A stretch of 64,000 nucleotides of DNA, from NCBI GenBank assembly GCA_903952205.1, contig CAJBEZ010000071.1:124001-188000 (forward strand), given 5' to 3'. Each line of letters begins with the position of its first letter. The first letter of the stretch is position 1. Position numbers and translations under genes: made by a program. A model generated the notes under the pieces. The model worked only from the letters and a program-made list of their open reading frames with translations. It searched no databases and had not been told where the DNA came from. The DNA comes from an uncultured Desulfomonile sp. Lineage in GTDB: Bacteria > Desulfobacterota > Desulfomonilia > Desulfomonilales > Desulfomonilaceae. Shown here piece after piece: positions 8,532-56,781 of this stretch.

Positions 8532-8574
8532 GAGAACGAATTCCTGATCCCTTGTCTGCCCGCGCAGGTTTTTT

Positions 8575-8745
8575 AGGGTTAGGAATATACCCGGGTATTC
8601 TGGCTTCCGTTTCGCCCTACTCTCCGCTCCTTCCCAGAACGTATTCCAGTGGATTAAACGCGGATTTCGTCTACGGTCACAGCTGCGGGGCAGCGACGGT
8701 CTTTCACCGTCTTCCCCAAAGTATTTCCTTTTATGTTTATTTGTA
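8575..8745 (-). promoter_or_regulatory. Cobalamin riboswitch
   Basis: The minus strand shows the cobalamin aptamer in order: GGGGAAGACGGTGAAAG near 8720-8701, the highly conserved GCTGCCCCGCAGCTGT core near 8694-8679, a GGGAAGGAGCGGAGAG arm near 8635-8620, and the B12 box GGAAGCCAGAATACC near 8608-8594. These are the hallmark segments of the family that shuts off B12 transport and synthesis genes when adenosylcobalamin or a relative is bound. The outer P1 ends are estimates. An intrinsic terminator follows at 8498-8531, so control is probably transcriptional. The controlled genes run leftward from 8214 to 3220. Confidence 0.93.
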
Positions 8746-8881
8746 CAATATCCGAAAGTAGCCTAGATTATGCTTCCAAAATCTGTCAAGTCTTTTTTTC
8801 TCAATGATGCAGGGAAACGATTGCCGATCATCTGTTCGTCGTGTCCCACGCAACAGACCGGGGTGAGCCCATTTAAAAACG

Positions 8882-32941: not shown

Positions 32942-34096
32942 TCAATCGACGCCAAAGATGGTGACGTTACCATAGATTCCAACTCCACCTATGTTGTGAA
33001 CAAGCCCTGTTTTGGCGTTGGGCACCTGAATTTCTCCTGCCTCGCCTCTGAGTTGAAGCACTATTGTTCTGATTTGGGACCCACCAGTGGCCCCGATTGG
33101 ATGCCCCTTTGAAAGCAGCCCACCATCTACATTGACAGGTATTCGTCCCTCTTTGTAAGTTTCCTTGTTTCTGATCAATTCTTTGCCCTGACCTGGTTCA
33201 GCGAACCCAAGATCTTCGTAAGCCATCATCTCCGCAATTGTGAAACAATCGTGAACTTCGGCCACGTCGATATCCTTCGGCCCGACTCCCGCCATGTCGT
33301 AAGCTCTTTTGGCCGCTAAATTAGCGCACTTAAGACCGCTGAAAGTATCTCGCCCAGCCATATTAATCGGAGCTGTAGCCATACCTACGCCCTTAACCCA
33401 GACAGGCTTTTCACATAAATCCTTAGCCCTGTCTTCAGATGCTAGTATAATGCATGATGAACCATCCGCATTTGCGCAACAATCCATCATTTTAAGAGGT
33501 GTCGCAATATACTTAGGTTCCATGATCTTGTCCAATGTCAGTGATTTCCTGAAAACGGCCTTCTCGTTGATCACTCCGTAAGTAGATGACTTTAGCCTTA
33601 TCAAGGCCAGGTCCTCTTCAGTTGTTCCATATTTTGTAAAATGTCCCCTTGCATGCATGGCGTAGTAAGCCGGCATCATGGTTCCAAATGGCGCTTCCCA
33701 TTGAATGTCCGCTCCTCTGCCCATTCGTTCCTGGGACTCAGCGGATGATATTTCAGACATTTTCTGAAAACCCAGCACCATCACTACGTCGTGAAGCCCT
33801 GACGCTATTAGCGCATAGGCTGTTCTCAAACCGCTTGAACTCGATGAACATACACTTTCCACGTAAAAAGTTGGTTGAGGGTTCAGGCCCAGATATTCAG
33901 CTATCAAACCAGCAGGCGTCCTTTGTTTGTCATACTCCGGCGCTGAGCAAATTAAAGAAGCCTCAATTTTGTTCGCGTTAATTCCCGATCCACTGAGCGC
34001 GTCTCTGAACGCCTCAAAAGCGAGTTCACGAATCGATCCAGGATATGAACGGACAAATGCGCTTTGTCCTACGGCTACAACCCCTACCTTTGGCAT
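32942..34096 (-). CDS. Thiolase (SCP2/acetyl-CoA acetyltransferase type)
   Basis: A 384-residue thiolase-fold enzyme. The nucleophilic Cys83 is in ESVCSSSSSGLRTA, the second active-site region is VAEVHDCFTIAEMMAYED and the C-terminal glycine-rich loop is GGLLSKGHPIGATGGSQ with the conserved GHP. This is the archaeal/SCP-x branch whose members work with a DUF35 protein, encoded downstream here. It may cleave or condense acyl-CoAs; divergent genes for 3-hydroxyacyl-CoA and acyl-CoA dehydrogenases suggest beta-oxidation. The ATG follows GAGGAGGATTGG. Confidence 0.9.
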   Translation of the reverse strand: MPKVGVVAVGQSAFVRSYPGSIRELAFEAFRDALSGSGINANKIEASLICSAPEYDKQRTPAGLIAEYLGLNPQPTFYVESVCSSSSSGLRTAYALIASGLHDVVMVLGFQKMSEISSAESQERMGRGADIQWEAPFGTMMPAYYAMHARGHFTKYGTTEEDLALIRLKSSTYGVINEKAVFRKSLTLDKIMEPKYIATPLKMMDCCANADGSSCIILASEDRAKDLCEKPVWVKGVGMATAPINMAGRDTFSGLKCANLAAKRAYDMAGVGPKDIDVAEVHDCFTIAEMMAYEDLGFAEPGQGKELIRNKETYKEGRIPVNVDGGLLSKGHPIGATGGSQIRTIVLQLRGEAGEIQVPNAKTGLVHNIGGVGIYGNVTIFGVD

Positions 34097-34193
34097 CCAA
34101 TCCTCCTCGTCCAGGAATTTTTACTCACTTATGAAGTTTTAGAATGTTAACACACAGGCTGCGGTCGAGCAATCCAAGTGTATAGAACAAGGA

Positions 34194-34210
34194 TTCCAAC
34201 TTTGTTGGAA
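34194..34210. promoter_or_regulatory. Inverted repeat in the divergent acyl-CoA gene promoter region
   Basis: TTCCAAC and GTTGGAA separated by TTT, midway between the thiolase and 3-hydroxyacyl-CoA dehydrogenase starts. It is a candidate operator for a repressor of both divergent units. The short arms make this tentative. Confidence 0.4.
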
Positions 34211-34326
34211 ACGCTTGAACAAACCTTTCCTCTCTGCTAAATCTTTAACATCAAGTTAAACATTTATCTTTTAAAATTTCTAGATCTTCTCGTCTTATAA
34301 TTCCCATTGGGAAGGGAGAATTGTGA

Positions 34327-35181
34327 ATGACAATCAAGCGAATCGGCGTAATAGGCGCAGGGTTGATGGGTTCCGGCATAGCGCAGGTGGCTTCTCAAAG
34401 CGGTTTTGAAGTCCATCTCATGGATGTTGAGGAAAGATTCATTCAAAAAGGCATTGCCACAATCGAAAAAAATCTTAAACGAATGGTCGACAAAAGTGTC
34501 ATCACCAGCGCTGACGCCCAAGACATTCGTGGTCGCATCACAACGTGTCTGACTTTGGCGGATTTGGTAAAAGACGCGGACATGACCATTGAAGCTGTGA
34601 TCGAGAATCTGGATCTCAAAAAGAGAGTGTACAGCGAACTGGATTCCTTGGCCGCCCCGGAAGTTATTTTTGCATCCAACACATCAGCGTTGAGCATAAC
34701 AGAGATGGCCGGCGCAACAAACCGGCAGGACAAGTTCATTGGCATGCACTTCTTTAATCCGGTTCCTGTGATGAAACTGGTGGAAGTTATAAGAGGTTAC
34801 GGGACATCGGATGAAACCGTTGCAATCACTAAGGAAGTCGCAAACAAGATGAACAAAACAGCCATAGAGGTGCTGGAAGCTCCCGGGTTTGTAGTTAACA
34901 GAATACTCGTTCCGATGATCACTGAAGCTATTTTTGTCCTTCAGGAGGGTTTAGCGACCGCCGCGGAGATTGATGAAGGAATGAAACTCGGGGCCAACCA
35001 TCCTATGGGTCCACTTGCTTTGGCCGATCTGGTAGGGCTGGACACTATGCTGCATGTCCAACAACATCTTTATGAAGAATTTGGAGATCCAAAGTACAGG
35101 CCACCTGGACTACTCAAGAAAATGGTTCGAGCAGGCCGGCTTGGCAGAAAAAGTGGAAAAGGCTTTTACGATTACACATAA
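34327..35181 (+). CDS. hbd: 3-hydroxyacyl-CoA (3-hydroxybutyryl-CoA) dehydrogenase
   Basis: A 284-residue NAD-dependent enzyme oxidising 3-hydroxyacyl-CoA to 3-ketoacyl-CoA. The Rossmann glycine motif [13 protein letters not shown] is at residues 9-21. [13 protein letters not shown] and the catalytic histidine in [17 protein letters not shown] follow, then [11 protein letters not shown] and the C-terminal [12 protein letters not shown]. The length fits the short bacterial Hbd/PaaH type. AAGGGAG precedes the ATG. It is followed by the acyl-CoA dehydrogenase with a 28-base gap and faces the thiolase gene. Confidence 0.93.
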
Positions 35182-35209
35182 TTGATCAAAGTCACTAGTG
35201 GAGGAAAAC

Positions 35210-36379
35210 ATGGAAGAAGTAGAAAGGTTTGGACTTACTGAAGAAGAGCAAATGCTTCAGGATATGGTTAGGCGTCTGGCGAAAGAAAAGGTCGCTCCTG
35301 CCGCTGAAGAAAGAGATAAAAAGGGTGAGTACCCTTACGACATGCTCGAACTCATGAAAGAAAACGGATTAATGGGAGTAGATTTTCCGGAGGCCTACGG
35401 TGGAATGGAAGCAGGCATGTTGGCTCATTGCATCGTTGTAGAGGAACTGGCTAAAGCAGACGCTTCGGTAGCCCTGATACCCTCGGTCCAGGAACTTGGA
35501 ACTCTCCCGATTATTCTTGCGGGAAATCACGAGCAAAAGGAAAAATATCTCACTCCCCTATCCAGCGGTGAAAAAACGGCGGCGTTTGGACTGACCGAGT
35601 CTAAGGGAGGCTCCGATGTAGCGGCGCTAAAGACGCGTGCCGTAAAAAAAGGAGATAAATACATCCTGAACGGCTCCAAAATGTGGATTACGAATGGTGG
35701 CATCGCAGACACATTCAGCATTTACGCTATAACAAACCCCGATGTACCACCTTACAAGGGGGCGAGTGTCTTCATAGTTGAAAAAGATTGGGCCGGTTTT
35801 TCGATAGGAAAAAAAGAAAGCAAGCTAGGTATTCGATCCTCAGACACCAGGGAATTGGTCTTTGAAGACGTAGAAGTTCCCGCTGCAAACATCCTCGGAG
35901 AAGAAGGCATGGGTTTTCATATCATGATGAAAACACTTGATTTTAGTCGTCCATCCGTGGCGGCGCAAGCATTGGGTATCGCTGCCGGAGCCTTCGAATA
36001 CGCCACTCAATACGCAAAAGAAAGGATCGCTTTTGGAAAGCCTATTATCAAGCATCAGGCCATTGCGTTCAAACTTGCCGACATGGCCATGAAGACAACC
36101 GCAGCGCGTGCGCTCCTGTGGAAAACATGTTCTCTATTGGACAAGGTATCCAAGGATATGTCCAAGATCCCACCTGAAACAATAAGGCATTCCTCTATGT
36201 CTAAGGCTTTCTGTTCTGATGTCGCCATGTGGACTACAGTAGAGGCTGTTCAGGTCTTGGGTGGTTTTGGATACAGCACTGAATATCCTGTTGAGCGCAT
36301 GATGCGTGACGCCAAGATCACACAGATTTACGAAGGAACCAACGAAATCCAGCGTCTTGTGATTGCCGGCACTCTATAG
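35210..36379 (+). CDS. Acyl-CoA dehydrogenase
   Basis: A 389-residue flavoprotein that introduces the alpha-beta double bond into acyl-CoA, passing electrons to ETF. Signatures are FGLTESKGGSDVAALKTRA, MWITNGGIADTF and FLAVIN-contact IKHQAIAFKLADMAM; the C-terminal IYEGTNEIQR carries the position of the catalytic Glu in short-chain enzymes. The ATG at 35210 is chosen because GGAGG lies 7 bases upstream; a GTG twelve bases earlier is less likely. Acyl chain specificity is not deducible. It works with the preceding hbd and the opposite thiolase. Confidence 0.93.
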   Translation: MEEVERFGLTEEEQMLQDMVRRLAKEKVAPAAEERDKKGEYPYDMLELMKENGLMGVDFPEAYGGMEAGMLAHCIVVEELAKADASVALIPSVQELGTLPIILAGNHEQKEKYLTPLSSGEKTAAFGLTESKGGSDVAALKTRAVKKGDKYILNGSKMWITNGGIADTFSIYAITNPDVPPYKGASVFIVEKDWAGFSIGKKESKLGIRSSDTRELVFEDVEVPAANILGEEGMGFHIMMKTLDFSRPSVAAQALGIAAGAFEYATQYAKERIAFGKPIIKHQAIAFKLADMAMKTTAARALLWKTCSLLDKVSKDMSKIPPETIRHSSMSKAFCSDVAMWTTVEAVQVLGGFGYSTEYPVERMMRDAKITQIYEGTNEIQRLVIAGTL

Positions 36380-37057: not shown

Positions 37058-37984
37058 TTATTTCCTGCACAGGATATCAATCTGATGCGCCATGAAAACC
37101 AACTCCCGCTGTTCGACCTGAGAGTGTCTGTTCTCAATCCAATCTTTAAATCTTTTCTGGTCTATTTCCGGTCTGTTCTTTAGAGCGAGATACATGGTGT
37201 GAATTAAAAAATGAAGGAAATAGGCTTCATCCTCACGGTATCCGTCTTTCCCCGCAAATACTGTCCAATCTGAAGACCCAGCCTCAAGAATCTCCAGACC
37301 GTTATTCCTGGCGTGTTCAAAAAGATGTCTGCCGGTCTTGCTGTCCCCTGAAACATCACCGTCTATAATACGCTCATCCATGGTCTGATGATATAAGCGT
37401 TCTATAAGACCATCAAGAACACGGTCTATCCCCGGTTCAAATATGGTGACTCCATCAAAGTTAATTGTCAAAAACAACAATCCTTGTGGTTTCAATAGAT
37501 TCAGCATAATTGGCAGGGTCTTTCCAACATCAACCAAGTCCATGAAAGCGTTGGCCATTATCACGTCCCACTTTTCATCAGGCCTGCATTGTTCAGCGAA
37601 CTCGAAAAAATCACCGGTCCGCAGATCTAGTATCATGTCTATTCCCAAACCATGAAATCTGAACTTGTTTTCAGAAATATCATCAAAATAATGCCCAATC
37701 TTTTGGGCCCACAAAGGAAGCCTCAACCTTGCTTCGAGAACATTTTCCCGCATAGAGTCCAACGCTGTGTATTGAGCGGCGTCGCAAAGCCCCCACTGGA
37801 TTGAGCGCTCAAACATAGTCCCAATCCCAGAACCGATTTCCAGTATGTTAAGGGGCCTCGATCTGTCGAAGGTTGCAAGAGTTTCCCGGAATTTATCCCA
37901 TACACACCTGTTTAGAGCCCGATCATCAACACTTTTTTTGGCGGAAAGATATCGTGCAAAAGAGTAATCTAATTCATTAAACAT
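37058..37984 (-). CDS. Class I SAM-dependent methyltransferase of the PTPS/RibD-C operon
   Basis: A 308-residue methyltransferase. The SAM-binding loop is NILEIGSGIGTMFER near residue 46, the acidic end of strand two is QYTALDSMRENV, and WDVIMANAFMDLVD marks motif IV. The C-terminal half (residues 160-308) is longer than in minimal enzymes, with ERLYHQTMDERIIDGDVSG and a DWIENRHSQVEQREL tail. It is the last gene of the five-gene operon; its start overlaps the end of the glycosyltransferase gene by 8 bases. The acceptor is unknown, presumably the pathway product. Confidence 0.85.
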   Translation of the reverse strand: MFNELDYSFARYLSAKKSVDDRALNRCVWDKFRETLATFDRSRPLNILEIGSGIGTMFERSIQWGLCDAAQYTALDSMRENVLEARLRLPLWAQKIGHYFDDISENKFRFHGLGIDMILDLRTGDFFEFAEQCRPDEKWDVIMANAFMDLVDVGKTLPIMLNLLKPQGLLFLTINFDGVTIFEPGIDRVLDGLIERLYHQTMDERIIDGDVSGDSKTGRHLFEHARNNGLEILEAGSSDWTVFAGKDGYREDEAYFLHFLIHTMYLALKNRPEIDQKRFKDWIENRHSQVEQRELVFMAHQIDILCRK

Positions 37985-39068
37985 GATTAGTGTGGACCAT
38001 TTCCTTCATGAAATCGCAAATCTTTTCACAACTCTGGCGCCATGTCGGGTGAGCCATAAAACGATCCAGAGCTGCAATCCCCATCTGGGAAAGGATTTTC
38101 CTATCAGTGGCGAGAAGAAGTATTTTCTTGGCAATAGCGTCTACATCCCCAGGTGAAACAAGAAAACCATCCACTCCGTCTGTTATTACTTCGTGGGCGG
38201 CTCCGGCGGTAGTTGCCAAAGATGGACAGCCAAATCCCATGGATTCGAGATAGACAATGCCAAAACCTTCGTACGAAGAGGGAACCGCAAGAACGTGACT
38301 GGCCATATATTCCAGCTCAAGATCTTTGCTGGCCATGGGGCCCAACAGTTTTACATTGTCCTTTAAGTCTAGGCGTTTAATACTGGCTAAAACTGAATCG
38401 GCGTATACCCTATCCGTTTCAAGATTGCCCACGACCTTTAGCGTCCATTCGTTTCTTGGAATATGCGAAAGGGCCTCCAGAAGAGTGTGCAATTCCTTTC
38501 TTGGAATCAGGCTTCCAACGAACAGTAATCTTATGGGGCCGCTTCGTTCCGCCCTTTCACGAATAAACCTCTGTCCAACATCGGGATTTTGGAGGTTTCT
38601 TCCGGGGTGAGCAACGACAAACGGTTTGGTTCTTATTCCCAGATTGCGCACAGTTTTTCGAGTCGTTTGGCTATTGAAAATAAACCCGTCATTAGAGGTG
38701 AGGTATTGTTTCTCTACGGTCTGATATAGACGATTGGCCATATTGGATCGTAATTCACTGCATCTAAGATGATGAACGATAGACACTATGGGGTATTCCC
38801 TGGAGCGAAACAAAAAAGAGTTTGCCGCTATCAGGGATGGATGGTTCAGTTCATCCTGCAAAAGTATGTCAACCCTGGAATCTCTTAATCGTTTTATGAA
38901 CTTAAACGAAAAGTTGTCTGTAAGGTGAGACGCATAATTACGCCAGGGAAGTGGATATACTTCCACTGATATTCCGTCACCCCTTAAATAATCGACCAAT
39001 TTTCGATCATAAATGAAGCCGCCGGTGAGAATGTCCAGGCTTCCGTAGATTACAATACCAACTCTCAA
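37977..39068 (-). CDS. GT4-family glycosyltransferase of the PTPS/RibD-C operon
   Basis: A 363-residue GT-B enzyme of glycosyltransferase family 4. The N-terminal acceptor domain begins MRVGIVIYGSLDILTGGFIY, and a hinge VVAHPGRN follows. The nucleotide-sugar domain shows LLFVGSLIPRKELHTLLEAL and the retaining-type signature VPSSYEGFGIVYLESMGFG, whose Glu contacts the donor sugar. A TTG start overlaps the upstream stop by four bases. The YDRKLVDYLRG segment with a TGG before it recalls the operon homologs in Actinobacteria. The donor and acceptor are unknown; the operon suggests a pterin- or pyrimidine-like aglycone. Confidence 0.87.
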   Translation of the reverse strand: MRVGIVIYGSLDILTGGFIYDRKLVDYLRGDGISVEVYPLPWRNYASHLTDNFSFKFIKRLRDSRVDILLQDELNHPSLIAANSFLFRSREYPIVSIVHHLRCSELRSNMANRLYQTVEKQYLTSNDGFIFNSQTTRKTVRNLGIRTKPFVVAHPGRNLQNPDVGQRFIRERAERSGPIRLLFVGSLIPRKELHTLLEALSHIPRNEWTLKVVGNLETDRVYADSVLASIKRLDLKDNVKLLGPMASKDLELEYMASHVLAVPSSYEGFGIVYLESMGFGCPSLATTAGAAHEVITDGVDGFLVSPGDVDAIAKKILLLATDRKILSQMGIAALDRFMAHPTWRQSCEKICDFMKEMVHTNHV

Positions 39069-39469
39069 GAACGCTCTCTTCTGAATGAAGCCCAGGCAAT
39101 TTCATTTTCCCAGATTATTGAAGTCACCGCTAAAATGTTAGGGGCCTTCAAACTATCGCAGAATTCTTCACAAAAAATACGGGAGAAATGCTCTATACTG
39201 GGATTCAATCCCATAAATTCCGGGAGTTCGTTTAGCGACCGGTCACGAAACTTACCCACAAGGCTATCAAGTAATTCTTCTATTTCTACGATGTCGACCA
39301 GATAACCGTGCTGGTCCAGTTCCCTACCTTCCAGTCTAACTTCCACGCGATATTGATGAGAGTGAATCTCGTTCTCCGAGCCCCAATCACCTCCAAACAG
39401 AAAATGATGGGCGACAAAATTTCGTTGAACAGCTACCGTATAAATTGAGTCTCCGGCATGATGGCTCAT
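39065..39469 (-). CDS. 6-pyruvoyl-tetrahydropterin synthase-like protein lacking the catalytic Cys
   Basis: A 134-residue T-fold protein. Zinc histidines are seen in NFVAHHFL and IHSHQYRVEV, and LVDIVEIEELLDSLV plus NPSIEHFSRIF follow PTPS/QueD order. The catalytic cysteine that precedes the HxH pair in QueD and PTPS is absent: the segment reads GGDWGSENEIHSHQY. The reaction is therefore unlikely to be canonical 6-carboxytetrahydropterin synthesis. The C-terminus (IIWENEIAWASFRRE) resembles, from memory, members encoded in a similar actinobacterial operon. TAATG links it to the preceding gene. Confidence 0.82.
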   Translation of the reverse strand: MSHHAGDSIYTVAVQRNFVAHHFLFGGDWGSENEIHSHQYRVEVRLEGRELDQHGYLVDIVEIEELLDSLVGKFRDRSLNELPEFMGLNPSIEHFSRIFCEEFCDSLKAPNILAVTSIIWENEIAWASFRRERS

Positions 39470-40527
39470 TAGGATTCCTCGTAATTGAAAATTACTTGAA
39501 GGACATCTTCGGGTTTCTCATCAATAAGCCTGTAAGCTTTATCGGCATCACAAAAATTAATTCTGTGCGTAATTAGATTCTCAGGTACGATCTCTTCTAT
39601 CATTTTGAGAGCTAATCCCAATCGTCTAGATTTATTCCAGCGTCCGCTCCAGTGAGGGGCTATTGAACTCACCTGACTGCTTATAAGCTTTATTCTGCTC
39701 CTGTGAAACCAACTCCCAAGTTGAATATCAGCCTTTTTGGAACCATAAAAAGACCCTAGGACGATCCTACCGTTAAATCCTGTTATCAAGACCGCCTGAT
39801 TCAAGACTTCCGGACAACCGGAAAGTTCGTATGTCAAATCAGTTCTGTGATCATTACTCAATGAATTCTTGAAAAAGCCCTCGAAGCGGTCGACTCCGAA
39901 ATCGGTTGTCGAGTCGATAGACAAATCCGCTCCTAAGCCTAAGGAAGCTTTTCTTCGAAGAGTATATTTATCAAAAGTCACTATCTTTGCAAGATTCATT
40001 CTTGACAAAATAGCGGATGTCAACAACCCCACAACCCCCTGCCCAAAGATGGCTACCACCTCTCCTATTATAGGCTCACCATCCATAACAAGGCTGACAG
40101 CCGTTTCCATGGTTGGTAGGAAAACGGCGGCTTCAGGAGACAGGATCTCGGGAATTAAGACTAAATCGTCAGTCCTCGAAAGGAAAACTGTTTCATGCGG
40201 ATTAAACGAGAATACGTTTTTCCCCAGATATTCTGGAGATACATTTTCTCCAATCTGGATTATTCGACCAACCGCCGCATAACCGTATTTTAGAGGATAT
40301 GAGAAGCCCATCCGCAGACTTGAAATGCTTTCGTCCACCGTCAAATCCTGGGGCCATTCCCCTCTATAAACCAATGATTCGGTTCCGGCGCTTATGGCTG
40401 AAAACAGCGTCTTTACGGCTACCTCACCTGAGTTGGGACCTGGAATGGAGCTTTCCCTTATCTTCACGCGCCCCGGTCCCTCAAAAAATAGTGATTTAAC
40501 AGGAATTTTTGAAGTTGAATGACTCAA
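39469..40527 (-). CDS. Zinc-less MDR dehydrogenase of the PTPS/RibD-C operon
   Basis: A 352-residue medium-chain dehydrogenase/reductase. The usual zinc-binding Cys region is replaced by LFSAISAGTESLVYRGEWP, so the catalytic zinc site is incomplete. The NAD(P)-binding Rossmann part shows VAIFGQGVVGLLTSAIL and VTFDKYTLRRKASLGLGAD. GRIVLGSFYGSKKADIQLG and the SRIKLISSQVSSI segment are typical of this subgroup (also BchC-like proteins). It starts with TTG, no strong ribosome site. It follows the RibD-C gene by 40 bases and overlaps the next gene by one. It probably performs a reduction or oxidation on the pathway intermediate. Confidence 0.82.
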   Translation of the reverse strand: MSHSTSKIPVKSLFFEGPGRVKIRESSIPGPNSGEVAVKTLFSAISAGTESLVYRGEWPQDLTVDESISSLRMGFSYPLKYGYAAVGRIIQIGENVSPEYLGKNVFSFNPHETVFLSRTDDLVLIPEILSPEAAVFLPTMETAVSLVMDGEPIIGEVVAIFGQGVVGLLTSAILSRMNLAKIVTFDKYTLRRKASLGLGADLSIDSTTDFGVDRFEGFFKNSLSNDHRTDLTYELSGCPEVLNQAVLITGFNGRIVLGSFYGSKKADIQLGSWFHRSRIKLISSQVSSIAPHWSGRWNKSRRLGLALKMIEEIVPENLITHRINFCDADKAYRLIDEKPEDVLQVIFNYEES

Positions 40528-40567
40528 TTTATTTCAGCGGCTTTCTATAAAGGTTTTCAATAGCTTA

Positions 40568-41323
40568 CTAAAAGCGGTTCGCTCCCACCGCTGTGGGAAG
40601 TTCGGAACTAGCTTCGAAATCACACATGAGATTTCCCCAAAGAATCAAATCTTTTCCCAGCCAACGGTGCCCAGGATTTCTCAGCCTTAAGAAATGACGG
40701 GGATCGGATTCGCCTAAATCGCTAACAGCTCTCAGTCCACCAACTAAGATTGGGGCAAGCGTCAACACAATAAAATCCGGTAATTTATCTCTGAGAAAAC
40801 TTGTGATAATGCGGGCGCCTCCTTCAACCATAAGACTGTTTATAGAAAGATCGCCCAGAATGGCCAACATCTCGCCAAGGTTCAGTAATCCGTCTTTGCT
40901 GGAAGAAACCTTGAAGATTGAGACCCCCATCCGCTTCAACACTGCCAGTTTGTCTTCATCAGCCCGGTCGCTAGTGATAATAATCGGTTCACGCGACATT
41001 TCAGTCAGAACATTGCAGTCCAAGGGGATCCTTAAGAAGCTGTCGACAACTACCGGTCGCGGATTGGATCCATTGACCAAACGAACTGTAAGTCGAGGGT
41101 TGTCTGAGAAAACGGTTCCAATCCCTACCAGGATTGCGTCGTGAGAGGCTCTGAGCTGGTGCGTCAACCTTAGCGACCGTTGTCCACTTAAGGCTAGAGG
41201 TTCCCCCGGACGCGCCGAGATGCAGCCGTCTAGGCTCTGAGCGTAGCTAAGAGTAACAAATGGTCTCTTGTTGCGTTTCCTGTAATCTGGAGCAAGTGCT
41301 AGCAAAGGCCTTATAAAATCCAT
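40568..41323 (-). CDS. RibD C-terminal-type reductase, first gene of the operon
   Basis: A 251-residue stand-alone reductase related to the RibD C-terminal domain and dihydrofolate reductase. The pattern RPFVTLSYAQSLDGCISAR, ASHDAILVGIGTVFSDNPRL, SLMVEGGARIITSFL and LTLAPILVGG is diagnostic. In riboflavin synthesis such enzymes reduce the ribosyl of a diaminopyrimidine phosphate with NADPH. A full-length ribD exists at 55624, so this copy likely serves the special operon. It heads the unit RibD-C, MDR, PTPS-like, GT4, methyltransferase. Confidence 0.87.
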   Translation of the reverse strand: MDFIRPLLALAPDYRKRNKRPFVTLSYAQSLDGCISARPGEPLALSGQRSLRLTHQLRASHDAILVGIGTVFSDNPRLTVRLVNGSNPRPVVVDSFLRIPLDCNVLTEMSREPIIITSDRADEDKLAVLKRMGVSIFKVSSSKDGLLNLGEMLAILGDLSINSLMVEGGARIITSFLRDKLPDFIVLTLAPILVGGLRAVSDLGESDPRHFLRLRNPGHRWLGKDLILWGNLMCDFEASSELPTAVGANRF

Positions 41324-41791
41324 AGTTGAGTAATTAAGGCGTCACGCCTTCCTCTCTTGTCTAAACGAAGAATTAGTCTGGTCTTTCAACTCTTTTTTAA
41401 GACCATAGTATTTTCATAAAAGTTTCTTAAACTTTTGATCAGCGCAATAATCATCCCATAGCTCTTACGAAAAGGGTTGGGGACACAACGGTTCAAATCT
41501 TTGGCGACAAATAAAAATCATTTTTCGTATGATCATAATAACCGCATATTTGTCAACATAATGTCACATCCCATGTTCTCCGAGGTGTGCTTGTAACATG
41601 AAGATAATTGTAACTCAATATAATATCAAAGATTGACCTTTGGTATCAACACAATTGAGTCTCACCATCAACTAAATGGGCGCTACATGAAAAATATTGT
41701 TCTTGATGAGACGCCAAGCCTCTTGTATAATTTAAGATTATGCTTTGGATCGTCTTTTAATTCAAAGTCCAGTTTATTTGCGCGTAAAAAA
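41324..41791. other. Divergent promoter region of the five-gene operon and tsaE
   Basis: About 470 bases without a supported gene. A short stem (AAGGCG-TCA-CGCCTT, 41337-41351) lies just upstream of the RibD-C gene, and a good sigma-70 promoter for tsaE lies at 41703-41731. The remainder is AT-rich and unassigned. Confidence 0.6.
41703..41731 (+). promoter_or_regulatory. Sigma-70 promoter for tsaE-lysC-cimA
   Basis: TTGATG and TATAAT separated by 17 bases. Transcription would begin near 41738, which excludes the longer upstream start of the tsaE frame and supports the ATG at 41792. Confidence 0.75.
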
Positions 41792-55133: not shown

Positions 55134-55655
55134 ATGAAATGTCCAGTATGCGGCGAAATCGAAGATAAAGTTATCGACTCCAGACTGGCGAAAGACAACA
55201 CTGCAATTCGAAGGAGACGACAGTGTCTGAATTGTATGAAAAGGTTCACCACTTACGAGCGAATTGAAGAAGTTGTGCCTTTTGTAATTAAAAAGGATGG
55301 ACGAAGAGAGGCGTTCGACAGACGTAAAATCATCGAAGGAATGCTTAGAGCTTGTGAAAAAAGACCCATAAGCGTTGAACAGATAGAAGCCGTAGCGGAC
55401 GGTATTGAACAAGATCTGATGGAAAGATCGGAAAAAGAAATTCATATTTCCTATATAGGGGAAAGGGTCATGGAAGCTCTGAAACAACTGGATGGAGTAG
55501 CTTATGTTAGGTTCGCCTCTGTATATAGATCCTTTAGGGACATAGAAGAATTTGTCAACGAGATAAAAGAACTATATGAACTCAAAGAATCAAAGGAACA
55601 GCAACCAGACCACGGACAACCTGATGAATCAGAATTACCGCAAGGTCTCTCATGA
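55134..55655 (+). CDS. nrdR: NrdR, ribonucleotide reductase repressor
   Basis: A 173-residue transcriptional repressor. A zinc ribbon with Cys3, Cys6, Cys31 and Cys34 ([13 protein letters not shown]) binds NrdR boxes, and the ATP-cone domain ([20 protein letters not shown]) senses ATP/dATP. It controls nrd genes in response to dNTP levels; none are in this window. The ATG at 55134 follows AGGCGG; an upstream ATG would add 16 residues unlike the family. A C-terminal tail is longer than usual. The ribD frame overlaps its end. Confidence 0.96.
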
Positions 55656-56781
55656 AGCCATAAAATTTATGTCTAGAGCCATCCGGATGGCCCAAAAGGG
55701 TTTGGGAAGAACGTCCCCCAATCCGATGGTTGGCGCAGTTGTGGTCAAAAATGGCAAGATTGTTGGAGAAGGTTTTCATCGCGCCTTGGGAGAGCCACAT
55801 GCCGAGGTTGACGCTATCCGTGCCGCAGGCGCTCAGACTGAAGGAGCGGAACTTTTCGTGACTTTGGAGCCATGCAATCACTATGGACGCACGCCGCCTT
55901 GTACTCAAGCCATCATGGCGGCAGGGATAAAAAAGGTGTATTATGGGATCGACGATCCCAATCCATCGGTAATTGGAGGTGGGGCGGAGTTTTTGCGCAA
56001 GGCGGGTGTAGAGGTAGTAGGACAAGTTTTGGAAAACAGATGCAGGGCCCTCAATGACATGTATCTTACAAACGTCACTTTCAAGAGACCGTTTGTTTAT
56101 TTGAAACTTGCTATGAGCCTCGATGGTAGGGTCGCGACTAGGACCGGGCATTCCCAGTGGATTACATCAGAACAATCAAGAATGCGAGTTCATCGTTTGA
56201 GGGACAGAGTGACCGCTGTCATGGTCGGAATAAAAACAGTGCTTGCCGACAACCCGTTCCTTACGACAAGATTGAATGGTCGTGAAGGCAGAGACCCAGT
56301 ACGTATAGTAGCGGATTCCAATTTAAGAACTCCTCTGGAGGCGAACATTTTCAACCAGATGTCTCCAGCCGGAGTAATAATAGCAACTCGCAGAAATCCG
56401 CCTTCAAGGCTCAGGGCCAGGCTCGAGAAAAAAGGGTGTAGAGTGATCGAAACAGCCAGCCTGGACAAAGTGGACCTCAAAGACCTACTCACGAACCTCT
56501 ATCAAATCGGAATTACCTCATTGTTGATTGAAGGCGGAGCAGGACTCGCTTGGGGCGCTTTAGAAGCCAGAATTGTTGATCGCTGCATGTTTTTTTACGC
56601 TCCAATCATCATCGGTGGAAAATCTGCTCCCAGTGGAGTCTCTGGGGCCGGTATAGATAGATTGGAACAGGCCCCTAGGTTGGTCGACATGCGATCATCC
56701 AGGATAGGGCCGGACATTCTTGTGGAAGGAAAAGTCGTTTATCCAGGCGACCAAGATGATACTACAAATAAATCCAGTTAA
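55624..56781 (+). CDS. ribD: RibD, bifunctional riboflavin deaminase/reductase
   Basis: About 385 residues carrying two steps of riboflavin synthesis. The deaminase domain has [11 protein letters not shown] and [13 protein letters not shown] (zinc ligands His, Cys, Cys). The reductase domain has [38 protein letters not shown] and [15 protein letters not shown]. The start is uncertain: ATG at 55624 overlaps nrdR by 32 bases, and ATG 55669 would remove the overlap. NrdR-ribD adjacency is common. The next riboflavin genes are not in the window. Confidence 0.94.

Follow-up and report, generated by a model that had tools for sequence, protein, structure and literature searches.

The closest structural counterpart of the PTPS-fold protein described here is SCO6650 of Streptomyces coelicolor. 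According to the paper on its structure, SCO6650 reportedly has neither the zinc nor the catalytic triad, catalyses no PTPS reaction and is said to keep the pterin-binding residues. In toxoflavin-type pathways, GTP cyclohydrolase II (GCHII) and a RibD-type reductase feed a specialised pathway with a methyltransferase, which is not known to include the set of PTPS-fold protein, MDR enzyme and GT4 glycosyltransferase. The cluster of PTPS-IV, the group whose signature is FGPAQ, has PF00925 and PF01872 neighbours (PMC5445326); unpublished work placing PTPS-IV in the synthesis of coenzyme F420 is mentioned in PMC5041015, where PTPS-V is listed as unclear. Here we examine a five-gene operon in 64,000 nucleotides of DNA from an uncultured Desulfomonile sp. 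(this whole stretch is called the window). The operon encodes a RibD_C reductase, an MDR enzyme, a PTPS-fold protein, a GT4 glycosyltransferase and a methyltransferase. On balance, we favour the view that these genes form the dedicated section of a branch off riboflavin synthesis, leading to a glycosylated, methylated pteridine-type small molecule. No published pathway assigning the whole gene set was found in literature searches, which did not cover subscription papers on SCO6650 or COG0720.

All five genes lie on the minus strand. The first (40568-41323) encodes a stand-alone RibD_C-type reductase of 251 aa that has no deaminase domain (PF01872, E 1.8e-44). It is followed after a gap of 40 bases by the gene for a zinc-less, BchC-like MDR dehydrogenase of 352 aa (39469-40527; TIGR01202 below its cut-off at 4.5e-22, with a weak PF00107 match). 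This gene overlaps by 1 base that of the PTPS-fold protein (39065-39469; 134 aa; PF01242, E 7.4e-24), which in turn overlaps by 4 bases the gene for the GT4 glycosyltransferase (37977-39068; 363 aa, with an E-x7-E motif; PF00534/PF13439). The last gene, overlapping the preceding one by 8 bases, encodes a SAM-dependent methyltransferase-like protein (37058-37984; 308 aa, with the glycine-rich stretch LEIGSGIGTM; weak PF13489). An original prediction, made by a model from the DNA letters, had given the five genes, the overlaps and the gap, and was right to the base. The families it named agree with the profile matches, that of the methyltransferase being weak and that of the MDR enzyme being mainly the sub-cutoff TIGR01202 match.

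The same prediction held that a neighbourhood search finding these genes rarely together would count against a common pathway; that outcome did not materialise. We scanned 84,980 species genomes for relatives of the PTPS-like protein and found 541 places, the best 80 of which, those nearest to the window, were analysed; 59 of these had enough DNA on both sides for gene order to be counted. RibD_C, MDR, PTPS, GT4 and methyltransferase genes stand in this order and on the same strand in 39 of the 59, which excludes a chance grouping of five genes. Other covered loci are without only a recognised methyltransferase (5), have RibD_C downstream (4) or have the PTPS gene alone (1). The hosts are Desulfobacterota, Chloroflexota (Caldilineae and Anaerolineae) and one member of the Binatota; among the best 80 of the 541 places, the closest named relatives at the locus are Desulfomonile metagenome-assembled genomes (MAGs), whose PTPS-like protein is 88% identical.

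The MDR-PTPS-GT4-methyltransferase block extends further. With the MDR enzyme as the query, tblastn of plasmids recovered it in haloarchaea and in Rhizobium, Peteryoungia, Thiodictyon, Methylosinus, Streptomyces and Microbacterium; the GT4 gene is missing or located apart in some of these loci. In Haloarcula marismortui, the PTPS gene of the block is present though unannotated. The Streptomyces locus that was read does carry the RibA and creatininase-family genes that the model had named for that genus. Within phyla, the distribution is patchy: a window-type PTPS (E<1e-30) occurs in 8 of 148 genomes of the window's phylum, and 16 of 201 surveyed Chloroflexota genomes have one. The cluster is thus an accessory trait, often transferred or lost, yet held together as a unit.

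Two further observations concern the surroundings of individual loci. The Microbacterium plasmid pSGAir0570_2 carries, within 59 kb, the whole set together with genes for a CDP-alcohol phosphatidyltransferase, an LPG_synthase_TM protein and RibD; it is typed as mobilizable (relaxase MOBC), and the set is close to recombinase and Mu-type transposase genes. This plasmid is a likely vehicle of cluster transfer. The recurrent neighbours in Caldilineaceae (fabF-like, ornithine carbamoyltransferase, carbamate kinase and molybdopterin oxidoreductase genes) look like local synteny only, and were set aside.

Which compound enters the pathway? In the loci of Chloroflexota and Binatota, the partners of the reductase gene are informative. 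Of 55 Chloroflexota-group loci, 43 have RibA within the cluster, and in the 50 RibA-bearing loci of both phyla it is either fused to RibD_C (34) or adjacent to it (16). All 50 of these RibA sequences keep the zinc Cys motif, and all 46 that parse have the equivalent of Tyr105 of E. coli GCHII. No deaminase domain was recognised in these loci. On the haloarchaeal plasmids L197, L198 and L200, the MDR gene is abutted instead by the gene for ArfA (GTP cyclohydrolase IIa; NF002587 above cut-off), a protein unrelated to RibA and normally an enzyme of riboflavin and F420 synthesis. The ArfA gene lies directly upstream of the MDR gene and overlaps it. Both RibA and ArfA would open GTP to 2,5-diamino-6-ribosylamino-pyrimidinone 5'-phosphate (DAROPP).

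The reductase itself points to what follows. In bacterial RibD, a lysine (Lys151 of BsRibG) is reported to favour AROPP, the deaminated substrate; this position is Thr in fungal RIB7 and Asn in the archaeal enzymes, and mutation of Thr35 to Lys in yeast ScRIB7 switched the substrate preference (PMC3631187). In the operon reductases, this selecting position is Ser, Thr or Ala in all 51 that parsed; Gln occupies it in four alphaproteobacteria. The reductase of the window's operon has Ser, whereas the complete, bifunctional RibD that is also encoded in the window (55576-56781, plus strand), and whose presence had been part of the original prediction, has Lys. The operon protein, a stand-alone reductase with no Lys at the K151 position, has these two features of RIB7/ArfC-type DAROPP reductases; it has neither the deaminase domain nor the Lys of a bacterial riboflavin RibD. 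Given Ser in place of Lys, the predicted reaction is the reduction of undeaminated DAROPP to 2,5-diamino-6-ribitylamino-4(3H)-pyrimidinone 5'-phosphate (DARIPP), in which the 2-amino group is kept. In archaea, reduction precedes deamination and yields the ribityl intermediate (PMC3631187), and haloarchaeal arfA and arfC are described (PMC8305020). RibA and RibD_C were not found in the haloarchaeal loci L112-L114, as expected since archaea make DARIPP anyway. Three independent observations (the RibA linkage, the ArfA linkage and the specificity residue of the reductase) fix the entry to the pathway, and we regard this point as well supported.

The PTPS-like protein belongs to the COG0720/PF01242 superfamily (84.5 bits vs. 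a cut-off of 22.4). Its AlphaFold2 model (pLDDT 93.7) is most similar to SCO6650 (3d7j; TM 0.86, 1.8 A, 23% sequence identity); QueD and PTPS chains are next. The original prediction that the catalytic Cys is lacking held up, as Glu32 aligns there. Comparison of the relatives shows two clades. In that of the window (Desulfobacterota, Chloroflexota, Binatota and haloarchaea), the three zinc His residues (H22, H36 and H38) are kept, Glu occupies the Cys position and most members have Arg-Asp in place of the Asp-His dyad (Arg75-Asp76 in the window's protein). Clade B, from Pseudomonadota and Actinomycetota, has FGPAQ, with one zinc His and the catalytic Cys both replaced by Ala. Glu93 and Glu121 are invariant across both, the latter corresponding to the Glu by which PTPS and QueD hold a 2-amino-4-oxo ring in place. 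A site that would hold an undeaminated, guanine-like ring without the elimination chemistry of PTPS fits DARIPP or a pterin derived from it.

Motif comparison excluded a classical PTPS-I, II or III identity. Where PTPS-I (QueD) has CxxxHGH, the window's protein has Glu32 and HSH, and it scores 46 bits against a TIGR03367 cut-off of 89; a separate QueD-like protein is encoded in the window's genome. The PTPS-II motif CxxxxxHGH (PMC5041015) is replaced by GSENEIHSH, which has no Cys. The conserved E32-N-x-x-H36 reads ExxxHSH, which is shifted by one residue from the PTPS-III motif ExxHGH and has HSH in place of HGH. At the position of the PTPS-IV signature FGPAQ, the window's protein reads WGSEN, and its clade-B relatives FGPAQ. 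The neighbourhood does match that of PTPS-IV (PF00925 and PF01872), in that RibD_C is in the operon; RibA is present only in the 50 relatives.

In the MDR enzyme, the zinc Cys and His positions are Ser46 and Tyr83, invariant in 54 MDRs; the lack of zinc cysteines had been correctly predicted, and sets the protein apart from zinc-dependent alcohol dehydrogenases. Nine residues (G48, T49, E50, H111, E141, D149, H275, Q285 and R302) do not vary within or between the two clades, indicating that the active site predates the clade split. The full length of the protein matches the BchC profile TIGR01202, at 78.6 bits vs. a cut-off of 291, too low for a BchC assignment; the nearest solved relatives are polyol/ketose (sugar) dehydrogenases. 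BchC converts a hydroxyethyl group to a ketone. From this double kinship, we propose that the MDR enzyme oxidises a ribityl hydroxyl. The glycosyltransferase is a GT4 enzyme by its PF00534 score (116.5 bits vs. 26.4), and the E-x7-E pattern is present in 52 of 54 sequences. Together, the GT4 and methyltransferase classes predict a product that is glycosylated and methylated.

From the gene set, its conserved order, the residues and the folds, we infer the following course of reactions, in which the substrates of the last four enzymes and the biological role of the product are our proposals. A GTP-opening enzyme would supply DAROPP: RibA, fused or adjacent, in the relatives, ArfA in haloarchaea and, in the window's genome (4.78 Mb), the only candidate, a single housekeeping GCHII of the RibBA type (a 404-codon open frame outside the operon). 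The operon reductase would convert DAROPP, with no prior deamination, to DARIPP. The zinc-less MDR enzyme may then act on one of the secondary hydroxyls of the ribityl chain; were this the one at C2', its oxidation would lead to the very ketose that arises in the GTP cyclohydrolase I reaction through an Amadori rearrangement. The PTPS-fold protein would bind this ketose and assist its closure to a 6-substituted 7,8-dihydropterin monophosphate, which the GT4 enzyme would probably glycosylate and the methyltransferase methylate. The conserved gene order RibD_C-MDR-PTPS-GT4-methyltransferase parallels this order of reactions. The chemistry assigned to the MDR enzyme, oxidation at C2' to a ketose that closes to a dihydropterin, is the more tentative part, and we would sooner doubt it than rely on it.

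Several points weigh against this scheme. FolE2 is present in all eight Desulfobacterota carriers tested, meaning that dihydroneopterin can already be made and that a second route to plain neopterin would be redundant. Zinc-less MDRs are often C=C reductases. Clade-B PTPS proteins are without one zinc His yet are still in the cluster, and catalysis by zinc thus cannot be essential. The window's operon is itself without RibA, the genome's one GCHII gene being elsewhere, and the Pfam match of the methyltransferase is weak. Finally, although the four core proteins show correlated pairwise distances (r = 0.83-0.97 in 54 loci), which speaks for a cluster kept as a unit, shared descent contributes to this result. 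Replacement of the pterin synthesis for folate was considered and rejected, as it is not needed in the FolE2-bearing carriers; FolE1 is absent from carriers, but also from 6 of 7 non-carriers tested.

A different fate of DARIPP would leave the ribityl group in the product as a side chain, giving an N-ribityl diaminopyrimidine or an 8-ribityl pterin, and would have the MDR enzyme act elsewhere, e.g. on the transferred sugar. The MDR subfamily is broad and its nearest solved relatives act on polyols and sugars, and a PTPS-like protein that has lost a zinc ligand may only bind. We nevertheless consider this outcome rather unlikely: none of the recurrent neighbours was recognised as a lumazine-synthase-like partner, leaving no candidate to build an 8-ribityl ring. 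A role in making F420 or a related deazaflavin is more improbable by far. The unpublished link of PTPS-IV to F420 cited in PMC5041015, the FGPAQ of the clade-B members and the feeding of F420 synthesis by ribityl pyrimidines all speak for it. F420, however, needs the deaminated 5-amino-6-ribitylaminouracil, whereas the predicted product of the operon reductase still bears its 2-amino group; glycosylation by a GT4 enzyme and methylation are not F420 steps, and no FO-synthase-type radical SAM gene was recognised among the recurrent neighbours (the window's genome itself was not searched for one). We give hardly any credence to the idea of a redundant operon for riboflavin, or to that of genes grouped by accident. 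RibD_C and RibA are indeed riboflavin families, but the complete RibD in the window, the change from Lys to Ser and an order conserved across phyla stand against both ideas. Plain riboflavin synthesis was rejected on the first two of these grounds.

Accessory genes raise the question of whether the product is attached to a membrane in some lineages. In nine of the diverse plasmid loci that were read (from haloarchaea, Rhizobiaceae, Thiodictyon, Streptomyces and Microbacterium), a CDP-alcohol phosphatidyltransferase gene is beside the cluster. Of the 55 Chloroflexota-group loci, 15 have one too, and there it is almost always accompanied by an LPG_synthase_TM gene. Such a module hints at lipid anchoring: the transferase would join a phosphatidyl or archaetidyl group to the product and LPG_synthase_TM would flip it, giving a membrane redox carrier. 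The pathway to a glycosylated, methylated pteridine is compatible with this fate, which would concern a subset of lineages. Cytochrome b561-family genes near the cluster in three proteobacteria (L115:10991-11530, L116:12057-12584 and L117:11479-12036) are in line with it and may encode a redox partner. Also in line with it is a small DUF7475 membrane protein encoded near the cluster in haloarchaea and Chloroflexota (L112:4500-4883, L113:6651-7019 and L055:10552-10908; below cut-off in Chloroflexota). In the Chloroflexota survey, the transferase is limited to carriers, occurring in 2 of 201 genomes, one of which was the chosen centre; most surveyed carriers are without it. The family was also not found in the window's genome, both Desulfomonile MAGs or two other carriers. 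We therefore hold lipid anchoring to be doubtful. Absence from the window's genome excludes the transferase as a core gene here, and we treat it as an accessory module; GARxDxExD, considered as its diagnostic signature, was dropped because it varied on wider comparison. Haloarcula and Streptomyces have creatininase-family genes close to the cluster, with MftE as the best-scoring profile, below its cut-off; the Streptomyces protein has a weak match to ArfB, from which a deformylase role is not established.

Upstream of the operon is an AT-rich, divergent intergenic region (41324-41632, minus strand) that is probably the promoter region. Promoter and terminator scans add nothing to this, the excess of promoter-like matches falling mostly within that AT-rich stretch. 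An Rfam scan found no riboswitch upstream of the operon; it did find a cobalamin riboswitch elsewhere, at 8573-8753 (minus strand), scoring 90.7 bits, far above the gathering score. On the other side, beta-oxidation-type genes (thiolase-like, 3-hydroxyacyl-CoA dehydrogenase and acyl-CoA dehydrogenase; 32942-36379) end beside the operon. A similar fatty-acid gene set is upstream of the cluster MDR gene in the haloarchaeon L197, possibly by coincidence.

Taken together, the cluster is real, conserved and present in two domains of life, and it points to an undiscovered compound. The prediction of an uncharacterised, conserved pathway to a glycosylated, possibly methylated pterin- or pyrimidine-derived molecule, distinct from riboflavin synthesis, is supported, with the reservation that the set had not gone wholly unnoticed (PMC5445326, PMC5041015). 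To that prediction, our analysis adds the residue evidence on the intermediate, the RibA and ArfA linkages, the archaeal members, the accessory module of transferase and flippase-like protein, and the division into zinc-keeping and zinc-lacking PTPS clades. If the proposal is true, riboflavin synthesis would have a further branch, starting from its intermediate DARIPP; bacteria and archaea would share a new class of glycosylated pteridines; and SCO6650, a PTPS-like structure of unassigned role, would be explained. Streptomyces coelicolor, with SCO6650 and its neighbours, is a genetically tractable host that carries the set. A bolder version is speculative and, we think, unlikely to hold in full: an undescribed pteridine cofactor common to several bacterial phyla and haloarchaea, derived from GTP by ribityl reduction and re-oxidation, with no part for GTP cyclohydrolase I. 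This cofactor would bear a sugar and a methyl group and would, in many lineages, serve as a lipid-anchored redox carrier with cytochrome b561-like partners.

Because all the enzymes are of known families and the neighbourhood had in part been described already, we regard the system as a variant of pteridine/flavin-type biosynthesis, not as something categorically new. With SCO6650 and PTPS-IV, it shares the fold, the MDR-PTPS-GT4-methyltransferase and RibA neighbours, the loss of the triad and the anchoring Glu; the window's clade differs in keeping three zinc His residues, in having Glu at the Cys position and in being without FGPAQ. The operon reductase resembles RIB7 and ArfC in being a stand-alone RibD_C domain with a non-Lys residue at the selecting position. 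Unlike them, it scores below the TIGR01508 cut-off, and it comes from bacteria that have a complete RibD, where its gene shares an operon with those for the PTPS-fold protein, the GT4 enzyme and the methyltransferase. The operon MDR enzyme is similar to BchC over its full length, and BchC likewise has the GTE motif and a Tyr replacing the zinc His; yet the operon enzyme falls far below the TIGR01202 cut-off and has no chlorophyll genes nearby. Finally, the proposed product class and ketose intermediate are those of the GTP cyclohydrolase I/FolE2 route, with the difference that separate GTP-opening, reducing and re-oxidising enzymes would replace the Amadori rearrangement.

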